Shown one piece after another: positions 2,164 through 2,176 of a DNA stretch of 64,000 bases. The notes under the pieces were generated by a model. The model saw nothing but the letters and a program-made list of their open reading frames with translations, was not told the origin of the DNA and ran no database searches. A program made the translations under genes and the position numbers. Origin of the DNA: Myxococcus hansupus (GTDB taxonomy: Bacteria; Myxococcota; Myxococcia; Myxococcales; Myxococcaceae); contig NZ_CP012109.1 of NCBI RefSeq assembly GCF_000280925.3, positions 3,616,501-3,680,500 of the forward strand, in the 5' to 3' direction. Within the stretch, counting starts at the first letter, position 1. Every line of letters starts with the position of its first letter.

Positions 2164-2176
<13 letters not shown>
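2..2176 (+). CDS. Nonribosomal peptide synthetase, upstream fragment (C domain plus first half of A domain; 5' end outside window)
   Basis: The frame is open at the left edge with no stop, so the gene starts upstream. The fragment holds a condensation domain of the LCL type (about nt 60-1400; active-site motif HHIISDGWS near nt 460) and the first part of an adenylation domain (from about nt 1440; ATP-binding core motif FTSGSTGRPKG near nt 1890). The frame then stops at TGA 2174-2176 in the middle of the A domain, while the rest of the domain continues without a gap in the -1 frame. The A4 region ADLGNT and the residue K278 (in KIVP) fit the aspartate or asparagine specificity families. The fragment ends just before the A5 motif, so it cannot activate an amino acid on its own. 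Together with 2164-7434 it forms the last two modules of an assembly line. Confidence 0.9.

Follow-up and report, generated by a model that had tools for sequence, protein, structure and literature searches.

The closest documented precedent for the locus described here comes from Streptomyces albus SM254, whose genome, like that of Myxococcus hansupus, is high in GC (73% versus 69%) and was produced using identical chemistry and an assembler of the same family (P6-C4, HGAP v3, and Quiver, at 262x coverage); as reported in the excerpt of that study used here, 205 indels in its 7.17 Mb were then corrected with Illumina data, almost all of them in G/C runs (PMC4832174). The M. hansupus assembly (CP012109) was built from PacBio P6C4 data at 138x with HGAP and Quiver polishing, and the corresponding excerpt of its genome report makes no mention of short-read correction (PMC4765838). 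The S. albus figures amount to ~29 indels per Mb, comparable to the ~41 single-base deletions per Mb that we find in the surveyed part of the M. hansupus chromosome, and in both genomes the events lie mostly at G/C runs; however, the errors in S. albus were fixed with Illumina data, whereas the M. hansupus comparison is one between assemblies. A third genome, that of Myxococcus macrosporus DSM 14697, is likewise a myxobacterial genome produced with PacBio and HGAP, and its authors, according to the part of their report cited here, screened for possible frameshifts and dropped the affected genes from the annotation (PMC5629066). It differs from M. hansupus in that its own copy of the NRPS gene considered below (in genome G062, which we take to be this strain) is unbroken and encodes 4041 amino acids.

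The M. hansupus genome (G000) consists of a single contig of 9,490,432 bases, from which we analyzed a window of 64,000 nucleotides (positions 3616501 to 3680500) that opens within the last of the three large genes of a biosynthetic cluster. One gene of this cluster encodes a condensation domain, carriers, and two AMP-binding domains, of which the first gives a DIP2-like match that we take to denote a fatty-acyl-AMP ligase; the second encodes a KS-AT module, a luciferase-like monooxygenase, and condensation and adenylation domains; and the third is the broken terminal NRPS gene. The DNA of the entire cluster aligns collinearly with that of two relatives, G066 (the sister genome) and G062 (the outgroup). 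Compared by domains alone, the cluster resembles the FAAL/PKS/NRPS lipopeptide synthetases of the iturin-mycosubtilin type, with which it shares an acyl-AMP ligase-like starter, one KS-AT module, the luciferase-like monooxygenase, condensation-adenylation-carrier modules, and a terminal thioesterase, but it differs from them in that an aminotransferase domain is absent from its domain listing.

The terminal gene, whose start lies 4,883 bases before the window (genome position 3611618), has C-A-PCP modules and a thioesterase at its end, the organization of a modular NRPS, but its deposited sequence is divided between two overlapping frames. The first is open from the start of the window to a stop codon at 2174-2176, and the first in-frame ATG of the second part after the break, read from the sequence, is at 2185. 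The ortholog in the sister genome is unbroken and 4071 amino acids long, and the two frames match consecutive parts of it: residues 1 to 722 of the first frame (P0001) align to a 2946-amino-acid piece of the ortholog, and the match of the second (P0002), at 90% identity over 605 residues, picks up directly after ortholog residue 2348 (its start being placed from the residues shown). Because both frames continue along one ortholog at ~90% identity, the frame break is real in the deposited sequence, and the two frames are not paired by chance. It falls at about 2163-2166 and splits one adenylation domain, with the C-terminal adenylation subdomain, a carrier, a second C-A-PCP module, and the thioesterase all recognized by Pfam in the second frame (Table 1). 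The second, unbroken adenylation domain contains an additional segment rich in Pro, Ala, and Ser (window positions 4960-5220), in which the differences in length from the sister ortholog that are not multiples of three add up to +81 bases.

Table 1. Features of the broken terminal NRPS gene (coordinates are those of the window)
Feature	Coordinates	Strand	Details
Broken NRPS gene, first part	2..2176	+	724 aa within the window; 91% identity to ortholog residues 1627-2348
Condensation domain (PF00668)	59..1399	+	P0001 residues 20-466, Pfam
Split adenylation domain, N-terminal part (PF00501)	1457..2170	+	P0001 residues 486-723; profile positions 1-265 of 384
Frame break	2163..2168	+	One base fewer than in 20/20 aligned related stretches
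Broken NRPS gene, second part	2059..7434	+	Mechanical ORF of 1791 aa; matches the ortholog past the break
C-terminal subdomain (PF13193) of the split adenylation domain	2689..2916	+	P0002 residues 211-286
Second condensation domain of the window	3250..4578	+	P0002 residues 398-840
Second adenylation domain, unbroken	4639..5871	+	P0002 residues 861-1271
Peptidyl carrier domain ahead of the thioesterase	6358..6549	+	P0002 residues 1434-1497
Thioesterase domain (PF00975), end of the assembly line	6616..7365	+	P0002 residues 1520-1769

To place the break among related sequences, we searched the DNA of 96 genomes of the family, M. hansupus included, of which 50 yielded matches at an E value of ≤1e-80, and took the best place in each of 20 of these 50 genomes (the M. 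hansupus genome among them). The resulting alignment consists of 20 stretches, one from each of 19 other genomes plus one paralog from M. hansupus itself. Between positions 2163 and 2168, all 20 are one base longer than the window, and every one of them can be read through its aligned part in at least one frame without a stop. This alignment, along with the ortholog match, bears out a preliminary description of the locus, in which one NRPS adenylation domain was said to be split by a single missing base. The same description had the base lost from a run of Cs, and here only the shortfall of one base stands: the window has a run of three Cs, as do the two close orthologs (DNA identity of 93% and 91%), and among the 20 stretches, 12 have a run that does not exceed this length and the other 8 have four Cs. 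Since the close orthologs have the same three-C run, the lost base may be a neighbor of the run instead of a member of it, and we set aside slippage within the C run as the sole mechanism.

That description had also raised the prospect of a reversible homopolymer switch. The break does adjoin a short C run; a reversible tract switch, however, normally needs a longer tract, and a run of exactly three G or C bases occurs 213 times in the first 7,434 bases of the window, the one at the break site included. Moreover, the run length ranges from two to four among the relatives with an open frame in every case, such that none of the 20 stretches is frame broken. We therefore find no support for a phase-variable switch, which we regard as the least probable of the explanations considered. 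Scarcely more credible is a genuine break that is bypassed by a -1 ribosomal slip ahead of the new stop codon, yielding a short and a full-length synthetase. A one-base backward shift would indeed enter the downstream frame with no conserved residue lost, but the open frames of the 20 relatives' stretches leave none with a break to decode, the downstream RNA structure is weaker than that of shuffled sequences (z = +1.1) and so offers no stimulator, and no classical slippery heptamer is apparent by eye.

What distinguishes the M. hansupus assembly from its sister is a surplus of single-base deletions. We compared matching parts of the chromosomes of M. hansupus (700 kb), its sister (655 kb), and the outgroup (720 kb), obtaining ~0.49 Mb of three-way alignment columns (0.493 Mb, out of a 9.49-Mb genome), and we dropped all indels for which a flank contained another gap or fewer than 15 of 20 identical bases, a filter under which the breaks at genome positions 3610707 and 3445386 are not counted. 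Private single-base deletions number 20 in M. hansupus but 3 in its sister (two-sided binomial P = 0.0006), whereas private substitutions are almost as frequent in one as in the other (13,933 versus 13,017) and private single-base insertions are equal (5 in each); the excess over the sister is confined to deletions. For the outgroup, on a longer branch, the counts are 40,730 private substitutions, 20 insertions, and 26 deletions. By the sister's rate, about 17 of the 20 M. hansupus deletions are in excess, and at ~41 per Mb (20 in 0.493 Mb), a few are expected to be real. A run of at least three bases is touched by 18 of the 20 deletions (by G or C in 17 of them) but by only 17% of random positions, a contrast inflated by the tendency of aligners to slide gaps to the edges of runs.

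Of the explanations that the preliminary description had left side by side, these counts, together with the PacBio-only procedure in the available excerpt of the genome report, favor an assembly error. Since some 17 of the 20 deletions are unexplained by the sister's rate, we consider it highly probable that the break reflects the loss of a single base from the PacBio-only consensus that went uncorrected: it is private to this assembly, and it would belong to the same deletion excess. One base at 2163-2168 would have been left out of the consensus, splitting the frame in the sequence only, and in the living strain the terminal NRPS would be a single intact protein close to the ortholog in length (4071 amino acids), whose terminal thioesterase would release a lipopeptide-type product. 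The retention of ~90% identity to the ortholog in both halves supports an intact gene, and the gene is presumably expressed and makes a product. Overall, this appears to be an ordinary terminal NRPS gene that is most likely intact in the organism.

The alternative is a recent frameshift in the strain itself, after which the first protein would end inside the adenylation domain without the last modules and the thioesterase, leaving the lipopeptide unreleased. The privacy of the deletion to M. hansupus is also compatible with this reading, and a second single-base shortfall occurs nearby: in comparison with both orthologs, the PKS/NRPS gene ahead of this one in the cluster lacks a base at about genome position 3610707, which lies 5.8 kb before the window, and its last condensation domain is split there. 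However, two breaks in the ~24 kb of these two genes are not unusual, given that one is expected at ~41 per Mb and that the chance of two or more is about a quarter. Nonsense changes, which may be expected of a pseudogene, number none among the 625 private substitutions of the terminal NRPS gene and none among the 715 of the upstream synthetase gene. The ratio of nonsynonymous to synonymous changes is slightly raised on the M. hansupus branch in both genes (263:362 versus 189:325 on the sister branch for the terminal gene, P = 0.08; 339:376 versus 156:237 for the upstream gene, P = 0.014), which could reflect either relaxed selection or the exchange of domains between modules.

The distribution of the deletions over genes also bears on this alternative. 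Both relatives have an ORF at the sites of 12 of the 20 M. hansupus deletions (and of 1 of the 3 in the sister), and at least one of them has an ORF at 14 of the 20 sites (70%), although 87% of the stretch lies in called ORFs. Because genes are hit less often than this share predicts, and random error would not spare genes, some of the private deletions are probably real mutations. Two kinase genes have two private deletions each (at genome positions 3220731 and 3222385, and at 3687961 and 3689119) and may be either real pseudogenes or clusters of errors. The upstream gap, the raised ratios, the apparent avoidance of genes, and the kinase pairs are the reasons that a real mutation retains some probability at the NRPS gene; set against the ~17 deletions above the sister-based expectation, we judge it unlikely. 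A hisA-like gene contains another private single-base deletion toward the 3' end (genome position 3278207; codon 259 out of 287 in the sister), possibly a further assembly error.

Two further surveys were uninformative as to the origin of the deletions. The essential genes dnaE and rpoC and those for the large class I tRNA synthetases contain no break in ~24 kb, over which about one is expected. A scan for frame switches based on codon bias returned 62 candidates in M. hansupus, 58 in the sister, and 61 in the outgroup across the main stretch, and thus does not separate the assemblies; we take these candidates to be mostly ordinary neighboring genes. The same scan of 400 kb around the M. hansupus origin gave 17 candidates, four of which were inspected.

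The probable consensus error at this site carries a caution for genome mining: at ~40 private single-base deletions per Mb in the surveyed part, long biosynthetic genes can be split, and a cluster that seems broken in such an assembly may be intact. If the break is instead real, M. hansupus would have recently and naturally lost a lipopeptide-type synthetase that is retained in two close relatives.

The remainder of the window contains several regions that stand out in composition or in their relation to the sister genome. An ORF of 1145 amino acids, with weak FG-GAP-repeat and glycosyl-hydrolase-15-like matches, occupies a stretch of lower GC content (~62 to 64%; window positions 8882-12319) and lies inside ~4.8 kb (genome positions 3624016-3628819) that have no long alignment to the sister, in which the flanks are less than 1 kb apart. 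Similarly, ~2.3 kb at window positions 38951-41206, with a Kelch-repeat ORF, have no long aligned counterpart in the sister, where the flanks are adjacent. The 2-kb step of lowest GC content in the window (~60%) coincides with a DEAD/DEAH helicase ORF (positions 36486-38081). Finally, the window encodes a Y-family-polymerase-like ORF (positions 17361-18881) and a second DnaE (positions 32082-35165; 604.8 bits, versus 1380.8 for the main DnaE), a combination that we take to be reminiscent of the ImuB/DnaE2 mutagenesis genes.
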